Assembly (NCBI GenBank): GCA_021776235.1
Contig: JAJFGG010000069.1
Coordinates: 124,001-188,000 of the forward strand
Origin: Alphaproteobacteria bacterium
GTDB lineage: Bacteria; Pseudomonadota; Alphaproteobacteria; GCA-2731375
Direction of reading: 5' to 3'
Length of the DNA stretch: 64,000 nucleotides
How positions within the stretch are numbered: position 1 is the first letter of the stretch; the number at the start of each line of letters is the position of its first letter. Below are positions 124 to 8,654 of this stretch, one piece after another. The notes below the pieces were generated by a model. It was not told where the DNA came from, made no database searches, and worked only from the letters and a program-made list of their open reading frames with translations. The position numbers and the translations under genes are program-made.

Positions 124-2358
124 GTGCCCATAGTCAAGGGAACCGGGATATCCATGTCGGGCAGACGCAGGGGCAGGCAGAATCATGGGCGGCGGTGTAA
201 TCCGCCGCTCCTGCTGATTGCCCTGTTGGCGCTTTGCCTGACCATGATCGCCGCGCCGGCCTGGGCAAAACCGGGCGAACGTATCGGGCCGGAAACCCTG
301 GCCCAGATTTTTCCCGGCGCGGAACGAGCCGGATCCATGGCGGGCAACCCGCCGGCCGCCTCGGTTTTCAAGGGTGGCGCCAGACTCGGTTATGTCTTTT
401 CCACCCAGGATGTTGTTGGTTCGGTCGGCTTCTCCGGCAAGCCCATCGACATTCTGGTTGGCCTAACCAATGCAGGCGTGATCAGCGGCGCCAGGCTGCG
501 TAGTCATAACGAGCCGATCCTGGTGATCGGTATACCTGACCTGGCGCTGCGGCGTTATGTTGACGGGTTCGCCAAGGTAGATATCCATCGACCCGGCCAA
601 CTGCGTGAAGGCGAGGCTTTTGGCGCGTTGCCGGATGCCATTTCCGGTGCGACTATTTCAAGCGCGGTGATCGGCGATTCCATCATCCGCGCCGCCCGCA
701 CCGTGGCCCGGGGGCGGGGGCTGCTGAAGTCGACGCAGGCAAAGCTGCGCCTGGATCGGGAAAACTACGAACCAGCGGACTGGCAGGAGTTGCGCGCGGA
801 TGGCTCAATCGTGCGTCTGGGCTTAAGCCGCGGCGCGGTGGAACAGGCCTATCGTGACCGGGTCGCTATTCCGGGGGCCGAATTTCCCGGCAACCGATCG
901 CCGGAGGAATTGTATACCGAACTTTATACCGGCCTGATCACGCCGCCACGGGTCGGGCAAAACCTACTTGGCGCGCAGGCCTTCAACCGTCTATTGGGAA
1001 AAATGGGACCGGATGATCAGGCCATCCTGATTGCCGGCAATGGGCTTTATTCCTTCAAGGGTACGCGCTATCGGCGCTCCGGCCTGTTCGACCGAATTCA
1101 AATCGTGCAGGGCGACAAGATAATCCGTCTGGTCAAGCAGCATTATCATCTCTTCTGCGGCCTGCAGATTGCCGCAGAGCCGCAACTGCGGGAAATTGGC
1201 GTTTTCGTCATTCCGGCCGACACCGGATTCGATGCCCTAACCGATTGGCGTTTGGAGTTGCTGATAAGCCGGGAAACCAAGCAGGGCGCGCGGGTGCATC
1301 TGGATTTTCCGCTGCCCTATGTGCTGCCGGCCGGCTACCGCATTGGTCAGGTGTCCGCAGCGACCGCGGAACCACCGGATCAGTTGGACCGGGTTCTCGC
1401 CTATATGCAACGGCAATTGAACGAAGGTGAACCGGCCCTTTGGTTGCGTAATTGGCGCGACCGGGCCGGCCGGATCACGGTTCTGGTGGGGCTATTGCTC
1501 ATTTTGAGCGCGGTCCTGGTGTTTCAAGACAACCTGGTGCGCCACCAACGGCTTTATCGCCCGGTTCGGCTGATTTATCTGACCGTGACCGTGGTCTGGA
1601 TCGGCTGGTATGCGGGCGCTCAACTATCTGTAATCAATGTGTTGACCTTTGCGCAATCCTTGTTGAGCGGCTTTCGCTGGGAGTTCTTCCTGCTCGACCC
1701 GCTGATTTTTATTCTTTGGAGCTATGTCGCCGTGACGCTGCTGTTTTGGGGGCGCGGGGTGTTTTGCGGCTGGCTATGTCCCTTTGGCGCCCTGCAGGAA
1801 CTGCTGAATGAAGCGGCGCGCTTGTTGCGTATTCCGCAAATCAATGTCCCCTTTGCCCTGCACGAGCGCCTCTGGCCAATCAAACACATCATCTTTCTGG
1901 GCCTGTTCGCCGTATCCCTGCACTCGACAATTCTGGCGATCGCCGGTTCGGAAGTGGAACCCTTCAAAACCGCCATTTCCATGCACTTCATCCGCCATTG
2001 GCCATTTGTTGCTTACGTCGGCGGCCTGTTGTTTCTGGGTCTGTTTATCGAGCGGTTCTTCTGCCGCTACCTCTGCCCCCTGGGCGCGGCGCTGGCCATT
2101 CCGGCCCGTTTGCGCATGTTTGAATGGTTGAAGCGGCGCTTTCAGTGCGGCCATGAATGCAAGGTTTGTGCGGTTCGCTGCACCGTACAGGCGATCCATC
2201 CCAATGGTTCGATCAATCCCAATGAGTGCATTTACTGCCTGGCCTGTCAGGCAAATTATTATGACGACCTGACCTGCCCACCACTGGTCGCCAAGCGCAA
2301 GCGGCGCCAGGAACGGACCGAAAAACAGGCCGCCTATCGCGCGAAGGCAAGTCAATGA
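124..2358 (+). CDS. nosR: NosR, nitrous-oxide reductase maturation/electron-donating flavoprotein
   Basis: Membrane flavo-iron-sulfur protein needed for nitrous oxide reductase expression and activity, thought to pass quinol electrons towards periplasmic NosZ. The translation from GTG 124 is 744 aa, the usual NosR size. Residues about 28-48 form a signal/anchor helix. A periplasmic FMN-binding domain follows, with a flavinylation-type motif SGATIS at 174-179. Several membrane helices follow from about residue 448. Two CxxxCP motifs (C548/C552 and C647/C651) and a C-terminal ferredoxin-like region with two cysteine sets (C675, C679, C682, C686 and C702, C705, C708) complete the NosR layout. 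ATG 154 (MSGRRRG) is an equally possible start. The stop overlaps the start of the nosX-like gene (ATGA), so the two are translationally coupled. nosZDFYL are not in this window. Confidence 0.93.
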   Translation: MPIVKGTGISMSGRRRGRQNHGRRCNPPLLLIALLALCLTMIAAPAWAKPGERIGPETLAQIFPGAERAGSMAGNPPAASVFKGGARLGYVFSTQDVVGSVGFSGKPIDILVGLTNAGVISGARLRSHNEPILVIGIPDLALRRYVDGFAKVDIHRPGQLREGEAFGALPDAISGATISSAVIGDSIIRAARTVARGRGLLKSTQAKLRLDRENYEPADWQELRADGSIVRLGLSRGAVEQAYRDRVAIPGAEFPGNRSPEELYTELYTGLITPPRVGQNLLGAQAFNRLLGKMGPDDQAILIAGNGLYSFKGTRYRRSGLFDRIQIVQGDKIIRLVKQHYHLFCGLQIAAEPQLREIGVFVIPADTGFDALTDWRLELLISRETKQGARVHLDFPLPYVLPAGYRIGQVSAATAEPPDQLDRVLAYMQRQLNEGEPALWLRNWRDRAGRITVLVGLLLILSAVLVFQDNLVRHQRLYRPVRLIYLTVTVVWIGWYAGAQLSVINVLTFAQSLLSGFRWEFFLLDPLIFILWSYVAVTLLFWGRGVFCGWLCPFGALQELLNEAARLLRIPQINVPFALHERLWPIKHIIFLGLFAVSLHSTILAIAGSEVEPFKTAISMHFIRHWPFVAYVGGLLFLGLFIERFFCRYLCPLGAALAIPARLRMFEWLKRRFQCGHECKVCAVRCTVQAIHPNGSINPNECIYCLACQANYYDDLTCPPLVAKRKRRQERTEKQAAYRAKASQ

Positions 2359-3317
2359 AAACAGGCGCTCTTCCCATTCTGACGCGGCGGCGCTTTGTCA
2401 CGATTGCCGCCGCAGCACTGGTCCTGCCAGCAGGCGCCACCGCCCGGCCAAGGCGATTTGAATGGCAGGGCAGCGCCCTGGGTGCCCGGGCCAAAATCGT
2501 GCTCTATCATCCCGACCCACGCGCCGCCCAGGCGGCGATCACCGCCTGTCTGGCCGAAATTTCCCGCCTGGAAGATCAATTCAGTCTGTATCGTCCCGGC
2601 TCGGCCCTGCTGCAGTTGAATGCCGCCGGCCAACTGGCCGCTCCCTCCCATGACATGCGTCGCCTGCTTGCTCAGTGCCGCCAATACAGCGATCTCAGTC
2701 AGGGGGCTTTTGATCCCAGCGTGCAGCCATTGTGGCAGTTGTACGCCGCGCATTTCGCCAACCAGCCCGCTGCGATTGGCGGCCCGTCCCTGGATGCCAT
2801 CCGGGCCGTGCAACAGCATATTGATTATCGCCGCATTGCCATTGGCCCGGCGGAAATTCGTCTCGATCCCGGCATGTCCCTGACCCTGAATGGCATCGCC
2901 CAGGGCTACATCACGGACCGCGTCGCGGATCTGCTGCGGAACAGCGGCTGGTCTAATGTCCTGTTGAACTTGGGCGAGATCCGCGCTCTGCCGGGCCGCT
3001 CCTGGAAAGTAGGGTTGCCCGATGCTGGTCCCACTCTGGTCCTGAGCAACAGCGCCCTGGCGACTTCCGCTGGGGCCGGCAGCCCGTTCGCCGGACCGGC
3101 CGGGCCGCACCATCTATTGCATCCCCGCACCGGACGGAGCGCCCGGCGCTACGCGTCGGTTAGCGTCCTGGCCCCCACCGCCGCCGCTGCGGATGCCCTG
3201 TCCACCGCGATTTATCTTTCGCCGCCGGAAGGGGCCGCTGCTCTGCTGCGCCAGGGCGGCGGCCGGCAAGCCTGGCTGCGACGGGCGAACGGCGCCGTTC
3301 GACACCTAACAGCCTGA
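2355..3317 (+). CDS. nosX: NosX/ApbE-type FAD:protein FMN transferase
   Basis: ApbE-family enzymes attach FMN covalently to Ser/Thr of target flavoproteins in the periplasm. NosX is the version dedicated to NosR. The 320-aa product starts with a twin-arginine-like signal (RRRFVTIAAAALVL, residues 11-24) and then carries ApbE hallmarks: DPSVQPLW, the LNGIAQGYITD segment, the LLNLGEIRA strand and HPRTG. A late AADALSTA segment matches the family's metal/flavin region. The gene overlaps nosR by 4 bp, and NosR contains the SGAT target motif, which supports assignment as its flavin transferase rather than a generic ApbE. About 195 bp of non-coding DNA follows before the next gene. Confidence 0.9.
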   Translation: MKTGALPILTRRRFVTIAAAALVLPAGATARPRRFEWQGSALGARAKIVLYHPDPRAAQAAITACLAEISRLEDQFSLYRPGSALLQLNAAGQLAAPSHDMRRLLAQCRQYSDLSQGAFDPSVQPLWQLYAAHFANQPAAIGGPSLDAIRAVQQHIDYRRIAIGPAEIRLDPGMSLTLNGIAQGYITDRVADLLRNSGWSNVLLNLGEIRALPGRSWKVGLPDAGPTLVLSNSALATSAGAGSPFAGPAGPHHLLHPRTGRSARRYASVSVLAPTAAAADALSTAIYLSPPEGAAALLRQGGGRQAWLRRANGAVRHLTA

Positions 3318-5033: not shown

Positions 5034-5450
5034 TTATTCGTCGTCTTTATGCAGGCGCAGAGACGCCGAGTTCAGGCAATAACGCAGACCCGTAGGCGCC
5101 GGGCCGTCGGGAAACAAATGCCCCAGATGGGCGTCGCAGCGGGCGCACATGACTTCCGTGCGCTGCATGAAGAGAGAATTGTCTTCTTCCTCAGTGATAT
5201 TTTCCGCAGCCAAGGGGGTATGAAAACTGGGCCAGCCTGTGCCGGAATCGAACTTTGCCTCGGATGAGAACAGCTCCAACCCGCAACACACACAAGCGTA
5301 ATTGCCCGCGTCGTGGCAGCTGTTATAGCCAGGCCCAAATGGCCGTTCGGTACCCTTGCCGCGGGCGACATAAAATTCCTCGTCGCTTAGTTGCGCCCGC
5401 CATTCGGCTTCTGTCTTAGTGATCTTGTCCATCCCCAAACCCCTATTCAA
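5034..5450 (-). CDS. msrB: Peptide-methionine (R)-S-oxide reductase MsrB
   Basis: Reduces methionine-R-sulfoxide in oxidised proteins in the cytoplasm. The 138-aa product has the SelR fold signature: two zinc-binding CxxC pairs (in CVCCG and CARCD), the GTGWPSF segment, GHLFPDGP and the C-terminal RYCLNSASL with catalytic C125. No signal peptide is visible. M7 ([11 protein letters not shown]) is a likely alternative start because MsrB proteins usually begin close to this helix. The 105-bp upstream gap carries a TAGAGC-type repeat (see 5556). Confidence 0.95.
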
Positions 5451-5555: not shown

Positions 5556-6299
5556 CTAGCTTTTCTTTAATGCCTTATTGATTTGCTTTATCTGGTGCTT
5601 GATGTCCAGCGAGATTTTCGAGGTCAGTTCAAGGTCCCGGTCCTCCAGCACGTCACCGGTATGGCTTTCAGACCAGGCTTGAATGGCCGCGTCGCGTTCG
5701 ATCAGCAGCCGGGCGATTTGCGGATGGTACAAGGCCACCATGGCGGTGATCCAGCGGTTTGCCGCCCAGGATGGATAGGTATGGTCTATTTCGAAACGGT
5801 CCAACAACTCGGTCACATCCGCCGCCTTGTACCAACATTCCCCGGTGACCCAGCGATTGGTGGTAAACAGGTGGGTGGGATAGCCTTTGGGCTCCATGGC
5901 GATGGCGACGAGATGACAAATTATATCATCCCCCGTCGGCCATTCCTCGATGCCGGCAAAGGGTGCCGTTTTCATATGGGACGGGATGCCCTCGCGTCGC
6001 ATGAACAGATGGAAATGACCATGCTCGCCGTCTTCCGGGCGGTGGGAATGATAGTAATATTGCCCATAGGTTTCGTGATCAAAGACATCGCCGTCGGGAT
6101 AATGATCCCATTCATAGAAAGTGCCCTGATGCTCGATAACCTGGCCCACAACATTGGCCGAGGCCTTTTCCAGAACCCGATAGCATTCCATGACTTCCTG
6201 TCCGGCGGCGGCCATCTTTTCCAACCGTTCACGTGACAGATTATCGAACAAACTCACAACCCGATCCTTTTCAAACTGACCATAACCATTCCGTACCAA
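5556..6299 (-). CDS. Conserved hypothetical His-rich protein (DUF6969-like)
   Basis: A 247-aa soluble protein with no signal peptide or membrane segment. The central part is rich in His, Tyr and Trp: a YYYHSH stretch followed by EHGHFH (about residues 84-102), which looks like a metal-binding or catalytic patch, and later a GECWYKAAD segment. The family resembles DUF6969 from memory, and I cannot confirm that without a search. The gene lies 39 bp from the SUMF1-domain gene on the same strand, so an operon is likely. The TAG stop codon (5556-5558) is the first part of a TAGAGCGGTTTTC repeat that extends into the intergenic gap. Confidence 0.75.
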   Translation of the reverse strand: MVRNGYGQFEKDRVVSLFDNLSRERLEKMAAAGQEVMECYRVLEKASANVVGQVIEHQGTFYEWDHYPDGDVFDHETYGQYYYHSHRPEDGEHGHFHLFMRREGIPSHMKTAPFAGIEEWPTGDDIICHLVAIAMEPKGYPTHLFTTNRWVTGECWYKAADVTELLDRFEIDHTYPSWAANRWITAMVALYHPQIARLLIERDAAIQAWSESHTGDVLEDRDLELTSKISLDIKHQIKQINKALKKS

Positions 6300-6338: not shown

Positions 6339-7208
6339 CTAGTCCCTGATCAGCCGAAAGCCGATCAAAATATGCTTCAATCCGGCAGGGCGACTGTGCC
6401 GCGCGGCGGGCCGGCAGATGCCGCATCCCTTATCATCCCAGGATCCGCCCTTGACCAGATAGCGGCCCTCGGCGCCGGCATTTTTCCCGACCGCGGTCGC
6501 GGTCCATTCGAAGACCTGCCCGGCGGCGTCCATGAGGCCAAAGGGGCTGGTGCCGCGGGCGAAGCGCCCCACCGGCAGCGTATCGAAGGGGCCCGCATCG
6601 TGGCTATTAAGGTATTTGGCGTCGTAGTCGTCGCCCCAGGGAAAACGCCGACCATCGCCGCCGCGCGCCGCCTTTTCCCATTCCAGTTCATCTGGCAGCC
6701 GCCAACTGCCCGTACCCTGGCCGCTTAACCAGGCGGCATAGGCCATGGCGTCATGATGGGAAACCAGGACCACCGGGTGGTCGTCTCGCCCAGGTGGCGG
6801 CCGGCGGTTCTGCCAGGCATGGCGCCGGGTCCGCTGGTAGGGATGGATCAGACCATAGCCACGCCAGACCTTGCGGCTTACATCCGGCGCCGGGTAGGAA
6901 GTGGCCGCGACGAAGGCGGCATATTGCCGGTTGGTAATGGTGGTCCGGGTAATCGCAAATGTGGGTAAATTGTGCCCTCGGCGGGGCCGTTCGTCATCGT
7001 ACCAACGCCACTTTCGGGTCCGGTCATGGCCATAGGCTGCCTGATCCAGGTCATAGGCGGCATTGCGCTCGCCTTGATCGGAGCCGGCGATGAAATCGCC
7101 GGCCGGAATAACGATGGTTTCCGGCACCGCACCTGGCCCCGCCGCCGCCATGGGGAGGCCGCCGCCGACACTGATCAGCATAACCGACAATGCCTGTGCG
7201 AATTTCAT
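6339..7208 (-). CDS. Secreted SUMF1/formylglycine-generating-enzyme-like protein (NirV-like)
   Basis: SUMF1-fold protein of 289 aa from ATG 7208, which has GAGG 6 nt upstream. ATG 7214 is the alternative. An N-terminal signal peptide (MKFAQALSVMLISV, cleaved near AAAGP) points to the periplasm. The rest is one SUMF1 domain: the ETIVIPAGDFIAGSD opening, PVVLVSHHDAMAYAAWLS, LPDELEWEKAARGG, FPWGDD, GQVFEWTA and KGGSWDD. Near the C-terminus C262 lies where FGE has the first active-site cysteine, but the second is replaced by proline, with an extra C265. It may therefore not make formylglycine. SUMF1 proteins such as NirV accompany denitrification genes, which fits nosR/nosX nearby. Divergent from the P460 gene. 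Confidence 0.85.
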   Translation of the reverse strand: MKFAQALSVMLISVGGGLPMAAAGPGAVPETIVIPAGDFIAGSDQGERNAAYDLDQAAYGHDRTRKWRWYDDERPRRGHNLPTFAITRTTITNRQYAAFVAATSYPAPDVSRKVWRGYGLIHPYQRTRRHAWQNRRPPPGRDDHPVVLVSHHDAMAYAAWLSGQGTGSWRLPDELEWEKAARGGDGRRFPWGDDYDAKYLNSHDAGPFDTLPVGRFARGTSPFGLMDAAGQVFEWTATAVGKNAGAEGRYLVKGGSWDDKGCGICRPAARHSRPAGLKHILIGFRLIRD

Positions 7209-7394
7209 CACCATCCTCGCGCCGGGTCGTTTTCCGAGACTGGGGATTATAGGCAGCCAGAACGGGATTCTCTCACCCATCACGGAAGTTTGAGGTGAAT
7301 TGAATGGTCTATCCAGGATGCTTCGGCGCAAATTCACAAGGCGCTGAATTTGGTGTCGCGTGGGCGCTTGTCGTGGACAAACAAAATGAATCCT

Positions 7395-7399
7395 GGAGG
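7395..7399 (+). promoter_or_regulatory. Shine-Dalgarno that sets a GTG start
   Basis: GGAGG sits 7 nt before GTG 7407. The ATG at 7350 has no comparable site, and the sequence after 7407 reads directly into a signal peptide, so GTG 7407 is the preferred start of the Cys-rich P460 protein. Confidence 0.7.
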
Positions 7400-7406
7400 C
7401 TGGATC

Positions 7407-8654
7407 GTGCATTTTACAAAGAACAATATTTTCACAGCATCGGTGCTGCATGTGGTTATGGGTGCGGCAATGGCGGCTGGATCTGCCATACCGCTGGCGG
7501 ATATCGCATTTGCGGCGACACCCAGCGCTACCGTCGGTGTTAATCCGGTTGCTGTTGCCAGAGGCCAGCAACCCAACGCGCCTGCGGTGCCAGGGCAGCA
7601 AAGACCGCTGCAATTGGCCGCTTGTAACCCCTGCGGCAGCAAGAAGAAGGGTTGCGGTGCCTGTAATCCCTGCGCGGCCAAAAAGAAAGGCTGCGGCGCC
7701 TGTAACCCGTGCGCCGCCAAAAAGGCCTGCAGCCCTTGCAACCCCTGTGCCGCCAAGAACGCCTGCGGTGCCTGCAATCCCTGTAATCCTTGCGGCGGGG
7801 CTAGCGGCGGCACGTCCTCGAAATGCGTCATTCCGCGGCTGATCACGGCTGCTGCCTGCAATCCCTGCGCCGCCAAAAAGAAAGGCTGCGGCGCCTGCAA
7901 TCCCTGCGCTGCCAAAAAAGCCTGCAGCCCGTGCAATCCTTGTGCCGCCAAGAAGAAAGGTTGCGGTGCCTGCAATCCCTGTGCGGCGAAGAAAGCCTGC
8001 AGCCCGTGCAACCCCTGCGCCGCCAAAAAGAAGGGTTGTGGTGCCTGCAATCCCTGCGCGGCGAAGAAAGCCTGCAACCCCTGCAATCCTTGCGCCGCCA
8101 AGAAAGCCTGCGGGCCGTGCAATCCATGTGGCCCTTGTGGCGCCGGCGCCGTGGTGGAATTAGCCGCGGCTGAGGCCCGCAGCGCCTATGACTGCCTGGT
8201 CAAGGAACTTGCTGCCGGCTATGGCAAATCCGGCCTGGCGGTGGCGGGCTATTACAAGGATTGGAAAAACTACTCCAATCAGCCTTATGTCTCCGACACC
8301 CATGGCGGACGCTATGTCAACAATTTTGGCAATTCCCTGGCAGCCAGTTACAATAAGTATGAAAAAGCGGGCCGCATGCCGGTCGGCGCTTTGCTGGCCA
8401 AAGACAGCTTCGTTGCCAAGGGTAATGGCAAGTTGGCGGCGGGGCCTCTGTTCCTGATGGAAAAGATGGCTGCCGGCTTCAACGAGAATTCGGGTAATTG
8501 GCGGTACACCATGGTGTTGCCCAACGGCCAGGTTTTTGGCACCACAAATGGCGCTGGTTCGGCGAAGATGAAGTTCTGTTATGAATGCCATATGTCGGTG
8601 GCCGAGGAACAGGACAGCCTGATGTTCCTGCCCGAGGAATACCGCGCGCACTAA
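7407..8654 (+). CDS. Cys-rich CNPC-repeat protein fused to cytochrome P460-like c-heme domain
   Basis: A 415-aa secreted protein in three parts. Residues 1-43 are a signal peptide ending near IAFAATPSA. Residues about 73-245 are a low-complexity block with some 40 cysteines, built from CNPC units separated alternately by AAKKKGCGA and AAKKACSP. A short non-repetitive spacer ([16 protein letters not shown]) splits it. Residues about 255-415 resemble cytochrome P460/cytochrome c'-beta: the HGGRYVNNF and YEKAG segments, a strand-rich middle, and a terminal c-type heme site C391-Y-E-C394-H395. P460 enzymes act on hydroxylamine or nitric oxide. The repeat could bind copper or another soft metal, but that is inference. 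The gene is divergent from the SUMF1 gene and near nosRX, suggesting a periplasmic nitrogen-oxide or metal role. Confidence 0.85.
7623..8139 (+). repeat. In-gene tandem repeat encoding CNPC units
   Basis: Degenerate tandem repeat inside the P460 fusion gene. The basic unit is 12 or 13 codons; a 25-codon (75 bp) double unit recurs, clearest in the second block from 7855. The copies differ mainly at third codon positions (tgc/tgt, ccc/cct, gcg/gcc) while the CNPC residues stay fixed, so the protein pattern appears to be under selection. Confidence 0.9.

Follow-up and report, generated by a model that had tools for sequence, protein, structure and literature searches.

A conserved family of secreted cysteine-repeat proteins, with cytochrome P460 fusions, in Alphaproteobacteria and beyond

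Introduction

The described proteins that come functionally closest to those analyzed here are the bufferins and the Buf_EGKCG/oxazolins, which are also secreted and rich in cysteines (PMC12452194). Some of these MNIO-modified Cys-rich RiPPs are large repetitive peptides that can have as many as 58 Cys, and a Buf1–Cytochrom_C–FGE-sulfatase fusion was reported in the same work. Two other groups are relevant on structural grounds. The cytochromes P460 (NeP460, McP460; PF16694) were reviewed in 2025 (PMC11928373); an N-terminal Cys-repeat block is not mentioned there, and the terms "fusion" and "multidomain" are absent. The FGE superfamily includes FGE, EgtB, OvsA, ToxD, CalU17 and PvdO.

Here, we analyze a window of 64,000 nucleotides of an alphaproteobacterial genome. 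A preliminary description, made from the letters of this DNA, pointed to a secreted protein that joins a block of about 40 Cys in CNPC repeats to a P460-like domain, close to genes resembling SUMF1, nosR and nosX. We asked how far this protein, its parts and its neighbours are conserved.

Results

The fusion gene (7407-8654, + strand; assigned by Pfam and orthologues) encodes a 415-aa protein. The ORF is uninterrupted and starts with GTG, and a relative has ATG at the matching start position (L013/L042). Its first 36 residues (7407-7514, +) resemble a signal peptide when judged by eye, and the homologues have a basic and hydrophobic N terminus with AxA ahead of the Cys block. With no frameshift and an apparent signal peptide, the secreted ORF proposed earlier stands. 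Two Cys-repeat blocks, residues 73-129 (7623-7793, +) and 151-244 (7857-8138, +), are separated by a conserved segment containing KCVIPRL (residues 131-150; 7797-7856, +), which was delimited from the alignment and the predicted structure. The P460 domain takes up residues 250-415 (8154-8651, +). The protein has 43 Cys, of which 40 are in residues 73-244, as many as had been claimed; the others are Cys263 and the CxxCH pair 391/394. It contains 13 CNPC and 27 CxxC tetrapeptides. Pairwise comparison of the ten CNPCAAK[KN] units gave 178 codon differences at position 3 and none at positions 1 and 2, in line with the earlier remark that third positions vary while the Cys stay fixed. An antisense ORF (7334-8122, -) spans the repeat; the composition of the repeat explains its length, and conservation follows the sense frame. 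The fusion is confirmed as a real, selected, conserved and secreted protein.

Across 51 fusions, adjacent Cys are most often 3 residues apart (60%), followed by 6 (20%) and 5 residues (8%), and CNPC makes up 827 of the 995 CxxC. The number of Cys per block ranges from 15 to 90, and 44 of the 51 proteins match CxxP[RS][LVI] in the inter-block segment. In the AlphaFold model of the window protein, which was built on a 33-row alignment and includes neither metals nor disulfides, nearly the whole repeat has pLDDT below 50 and both blocks are predicted to be disordered. We therefore rejected the idea of a folded solenoid, as far as a model lacking metals and disulfides can tell. The inter-block segment (about 136-156) is predicted to be ordered, with a strand at 136-141, a helix at 143-151 and pLDDT up to 93. 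No Pfam or NCBIfam family matched the repeat above its cut-off, standalone peptides included, which agrees with the earlier statement that the layout is uncharacterized. Searches of the open-access literature, which is not all literature, for cysteine-rich P460 proteins in Alphaproteobacteria, P460 with FGE, CNPC and DUF6969 returned nothing. One standalone peptide with NPCAA repeats (L180) weakly resembles NF038108, the "Cys-every-fifth RiPP peptide CefA", but its 12.1 bits fall short of the cut-off (30), and it is not a member. PADLOC found no link to a defence system.

The C-terminal domain is a cytochrome P460 by several lines of evidence, as the preliminary description had supposed, and the searches did not place it in an unrelated family. 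Residues 283-401 score 28.8 bits against Pfam Cytochrome_P460 (cut-off 27). The best PDB profile match is 7s5o (4.5e-7), NeP460 being weaker, and Foldseek places the predicted domain (pLDDT mostly above 90) closest to 6hiu, the P460 of M. capsulatus (E 4.2e-5, prob 1.00, TM 0.67 on target). The haem c motif near the C terminus, CYECH in the window protein (residues 391-395; 8577-8591, +), is invariant as CxxCH in our alignments of 14 (A2) and 33 (A4) sequences. So is Lys332 (8400-8402, +), which aligns with Lys70 of NeP460, the haem-cross-linking Lys; at the aligned position NeCP-beta has a Met and TtCP-beta has Phe61. The residues at this position in P460 and c'-beta proteins are given in Table 2 of PMC11928373. 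A Lys at the cross-link position is thus kept in the fusions, judging from these alignments. The domain shares with cytochrome P460 the fold, the C-terminal CxxCH, the Lys at the cross-link position and the periplasmic type. Cytochromes c'-beta (NeCP-beta, 7s5o; TtCP-beta, 7ead) have the same fold, and one of them is the best profile match, but they carry Met or Phe where the fusion family has its invariant Lys. The position of the distal carboxylate, which NH2OH oxidation requires, falls on Leu350 or Gly357, depending on the alignment template; Glu352 lies nearby and is replaced by Ala or Ser in C82-type copies. Some lone P460 domains of the family also carry a class III adenylate/guanylate cyclase domain (L102:547-1824, L109:9245-10525, L112:1980-3239; Pfam on L102), and these could possibly be haem-based signalling proteins.

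The layout is not restricted to the window, and the concern that it might lack homologues in other genomes can be set aside. It recurs in three paralogues of the source genome, which has three repeat-P460 fusions, one lone P460 and one small standalone CNPC peptide. The fusion/P460 profile matched in 13 of the 15 genomes of the order. We scanned named genomes and obtained 175 relatives, from Sneathiella, Pelagibius, Kiloniellaceae, Aestuariispira and numerous MAGs; the fusion layout itself is present in about 60 named contigs of Alphaproteobacteria. When 110 P460 domains were placed in one tree, a branch with 100/100 support parted the fusions from the lone domains, with 2 of the 110 rows misplaced, one stray on each side (one of them, L081_2, had only 9 upstream Cys). 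Since the two groups are split by this branch, the fusion is old. In three loci the repeat lies inside the P460 domain, after the strand containing the Lys (L234:715-1665, L235:2023-3069, L236:11557-12414). Secreted P460-like proteins without Cys (MRSSFVKSLLSSGAILP...) are encoded at the same loci, as is a gene that resembles radical-SAM PqqE.

Two lineages outside the class have the repeat fused to a cytochrome c of the SoxA/TsdA type (NCBIfam SoxA 5.1e-13; Pfam SoxA-TsdA 2.6e-12). In one of them (G723, L259), an NPCAAK repeat flanks the cytochrome on both sides, directly before DUF6969. In the other, family f188, all six genomes tested have NPC[SA]MK repeats, five of them fused to the cytochrome (G634, G547, G457, G593, G579); the sixth (G506) has a standalone peptide alone within the stretch examined. 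One kind of repeat has thus been joined to two unrelated c-haem domains. Several f188 repeat loci adjoin standalone peptides, ArsM-type arsenite methyltransferases and multihaem cytochromes. For example, L253, L262 and L265 have NPC[SA]MK peptides beside multihaem cytochromes and genes of the arsenite-methyltransferase family (NF008823 on L253 and L265). No DUF6969 was seen near the f188 repeat genes, though this family has both the repeat and an FGE-like protein. As a module, the repeat is ancient and mobile: it occurs alone, fused to P460, inside P460 or with a SoxA/TsdA-type cytochrome c, and its secreted proteins form a widespread and apparently undescribed family.

The neighbour likened to SUMF1 is a secreted protein of 289 aa (6339-7208, -), counted from the ATG at 7208 and divergent from the fusion gene. 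Pfam FGE-sulfatase (5.5e-47) and Foldseek both assign it the FGE fold that defines the superfamily, its nearest solved relatives being ToxD and CalU17, and the subfamily stays under every NCBIfam equivalog cut-off. The linkage to which the preliminary description drew attention is conserved: an FGE-like gene is divergent beside 25 of 60 fusions versus 0 of 23 lone P460 genes (HMM-based counts within 4 kb, at loci whose upstream sequence reached 3 kb or more). Five genomes with the FGE-like protein and without P460 were sampled, and in four of them (G094, G273, G279, G376; L164, L166, L178, L180) a standalone secreted Cys-repeat peptide adjoins the FGE-like gene; G054, the remaining genome, lacks a clear repeat. 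Because these peptides stand beside the gene where P460 is absent, it is the repeat, not the haem domain, that the FGE-like protein follows.

The active-site Cys of FGE form a CxxxxC pair, in place of which the neighbour has CGxC (CGIC, residues 262-265; 6414-6425, -). This pair holds the only invariant Cys of the FGE-like proteins, and the C336/C341 spacing of human FGE (numbering from the PDB titles 2aft, C336S, and 2afy, C341S) is not kept. All members examined from CNPC-bearing Alphaproteobacteria have CGxC, versus GG-xC in f188. Loss of the first CGxC Cys was considered as a marker of repeat-less lineages and rejected, given that f188 carries NPC[SA]MK repeats; as far as the sequences go, CGxC versus GG-xC is a lineage difference only. 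The FGE consensus CxPxR occurs 12 times in 51 fusions, which together have roughly 1,700 Cys, and never in the window protein. As the motif is nearly absent, we also rejected the repeat as a canonical FGE substrate (CxPxR to formylglycine). In one genome (G739, L182), a CGxC FGE-like protein is present and two patterns did not find an NPC repeat.

Directly after the FGE-like gene, and on its strand, lies a gene for a DUF6969 protein of 247 aa (5556-6299, -; PF22308, 1.2e-82). Proteins of this family have about 250 aa and no apparent signal peptide, and are predicted to be cytosolic. They have H, Y and W that are invariant, HxH...EHGHFH among them (alignment A5; HSH...EHGHFH in the window copy), and no solved structural relative was found. 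DUF6969 is His-rich, probably binds metal and may be an enzyme. It was found near 24 of 60 fusions versus 0 of 23 lone P460 genes. At 40 loci, 17 of 23 Cys-repeat ORFs lay within 1 kb of DUF6969, and only 16 of the 40 had such an ORF at 2.5 kb or less. DUF6969 also adjoins repeat peptides without FGE or P460 (L211, L213) and Cys-repeat peptides of other sequence, namely CGG (L243), CCAAEG (L244) and CSPC (L245). The latter are the best hint that it may serve secreted Cys repeats in general. Secreted Cys-rich peptides near DUF6969 include those of L243:5187-5573 (CGGSHAGD), L244:5179-5475 (CCAAEG) and L225:2314-2604 (His5/NPCAG).

Co-occurrence was surveyed in 385 genomes of the class, with the repeat defined by at least three NPCAA[KN] matches. 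The FGE-like protein was present in 32 genomes, P460 of the window kind in 55, DUF6969 in 89 (23%) and the repeat in 44. Among the 44 repeat genomes, 41 have DUF6969 (Fisher p 1e-26), 35 P460 and 25 the FGE-like protein, which leaves 19 without the latter. The Fisher p values (1e-17 to 1e-27) treat the genomes as unrelated; the 44 repeat genomes span about two dozen families. The repeat does co-occur with P460 and SUMF1-like genes in this sample, but the unit that goes with the FGE-like protein and DUF6969 is the repeat and not the P460 fusion. Two genomes, G129 and G355, match the repeat pattern and have no DUF6969. Conversely, 48 sampled genomes have DUF6969 without the repeat pattern, often with no Cys-rich neighbour, so DUF6969 may have another job.

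Other neighbours are less constant. The nosR and ApbE/NosX genes noted near the fusion are present (124-3317, +; Pfam, NCBIfam), but their linkage is seen solely in close relatives (a cluster of five loci). We consider it a genus-local coincidence and reject a link of the fusion to nos and denitrification. A methionine sulfoxide reductase B gene (SelR by Pfam; 5034-5450, -) is likewise a conserved neighbour in close relatives only. A cupredoxin gene lies downstream of two of the three fusions of the source genome. At these loci (L007:6904-10029, L008:9788-15245), the fusion is followed by a plastocyanin-like cupredoxin and then by a 4HB-MCP chemoreceptor or a hybrid histidine kinase, possibly a copper/NO-sensing operon. 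A sulfur transporter of the YeeE/YedE type (PF04143) is upstream of the repeat gene in seven loci, including L082:6571-7749. These neighbours point in different ways: the cupredoxins fit copper, ArsM fits arsenic, and the YeeE-type transporter and SoxA/TsdA fit sulfur.

Discussion

The NPC-repeat genes travel with two uncharacterized partners, which suggests a periplasmic system for soft metals or sulfur. We propose, at what we judge to be nearly even chances, that the fusion is an exported polythiol-haem protein that buffers a thiophilic ligand and is serviced by DUF6969 and the FGE-like protein. DUF6969 would act on the repeat precursor in the cytosol, ahead of its Sec export; in the periplasm, the FGE-like protein would act on the repeat. 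Jointly, they could modify, metallate or maintain its cysteines. The finished polythiol would then buffer a periplasmic ligand, Cu(I) being the likeliest and As(III) or sulfane sulfur possible, and the attached c-haem domain could supply electron transfer or NO/hydroxylamine chemistry on site. The soft-metal store with an NO/hydroxylamine-active haem that the preliminary description conceived is plausible. A more specific version, which we find somewhat unlikely, is that the DUF6969 proteins are metalloenzymes of a new, peptide-modifying family whose targets are the cysteines of secreted Cys repeats (NPC, CGG, CCAAEG), with a periplasmic FGE-fold partner. Such a system would be RiPP-like and independent of MNIO, and would make long metal- or sulfur-binding proteins that are poly-modified and, depending on the lineage, joined to a P460 or a SoxA/TsdA haem domain. 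Linkage in the genomes may also stem from co-regulation, and genomes of relatives do not count as independent observations.

The cysteines may need no modification at all. The repeat could be a metallothionein-like store that binds Cu(I), Zn(II) or As(III) directly, with the FGE-like protein and DUF6969 as assembly or stress proteins that leave the Cys unaltered. The dense Cys at a regular 3-residue spacing, the Met that joins them in the f188 repeats (NPC[SA]MK) and the cupredoxin and ArsM neighbours all fit such a store. The FGE-like protein lacks the Cys spacing of FGE and so may not oxidize Cys, which fits it as well. Yet it would leave unexplained why two partners follow the repeat across classes and differing types of Cys repeat, and free thiols would need protection in the oxidizing periplasm; we regard it as unlikely.

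Very doubtful, in our view, is a role as sulfur carrier, in which the haem domain oxidizes or reduces what the polythiol bears, be it sulfane sulfur, persulfides or mixed disulfides. SoxA/TsdA is a family of thiosulfate-oxidizing cytochromes, and its use as the second haem partner speaks for this role, as do the seven loci with a YeeE/YedE-type transporter. Nevertheless, most loci lack the transporter link, a sox cluster was not seen at the window locus, and P460 has no known sulfur chemistry. Equally doubtful is a purely structural repeat, a multi-disulfide scaffold or spacer that displays or tethers the haem domain without any small-molecule function. Its length and copy number do vary as those of a spacer would, and the repeat is tolerated inside a P460 loop. 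But the standalone secreted peptides have no domain to tether, silent sites vary and the Cys do not, and the repeat is predicted to be disordered.

Pfam and NCBIfam yielded no family for the repeat, DUF6969 has no assigned function, and their combination is absent from the literature searched. In many Alphaproteobacteria, and outside the class, the results hint at an unannotated periplasmic system made of a secreted polycysteine repeat, DUF6969 and an FGE-like protein. If its partners modify or metallate the cysteines, as in our preferred reading, this would give DUF6969 a function and reveal how c-haem domains such as P460 are linked with a store of thiols. For a comparison, P460 relatives from Alphaproteobacteria are at hand both with repeats and without. 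With the bufferins, the NPC proteins share the character of secreted Cys-rich precursors, their signal peptides being judged by eye. For the Buf1, Buf2 and EGKCG signatures, the comparison covered Pfam and NCBIfam, in which the standalone peptides have no match above cut-off, and MNIO/DUF692 is absent among the 25 families listed of the 122 matched (118 neighbour representatives). The repeat is CNPC here and EGKCG/Buf in the bufferins and oxazolins, and the recurrent partners are DUF6969 and a stand-alone FGE-like protein for the former and MNIO for the latter. If their cysteines are indeed modified or metallated, the NPC proteins would be new natural thiol-based handlers of metal or sulfur, to be placed alongside the bufferins.
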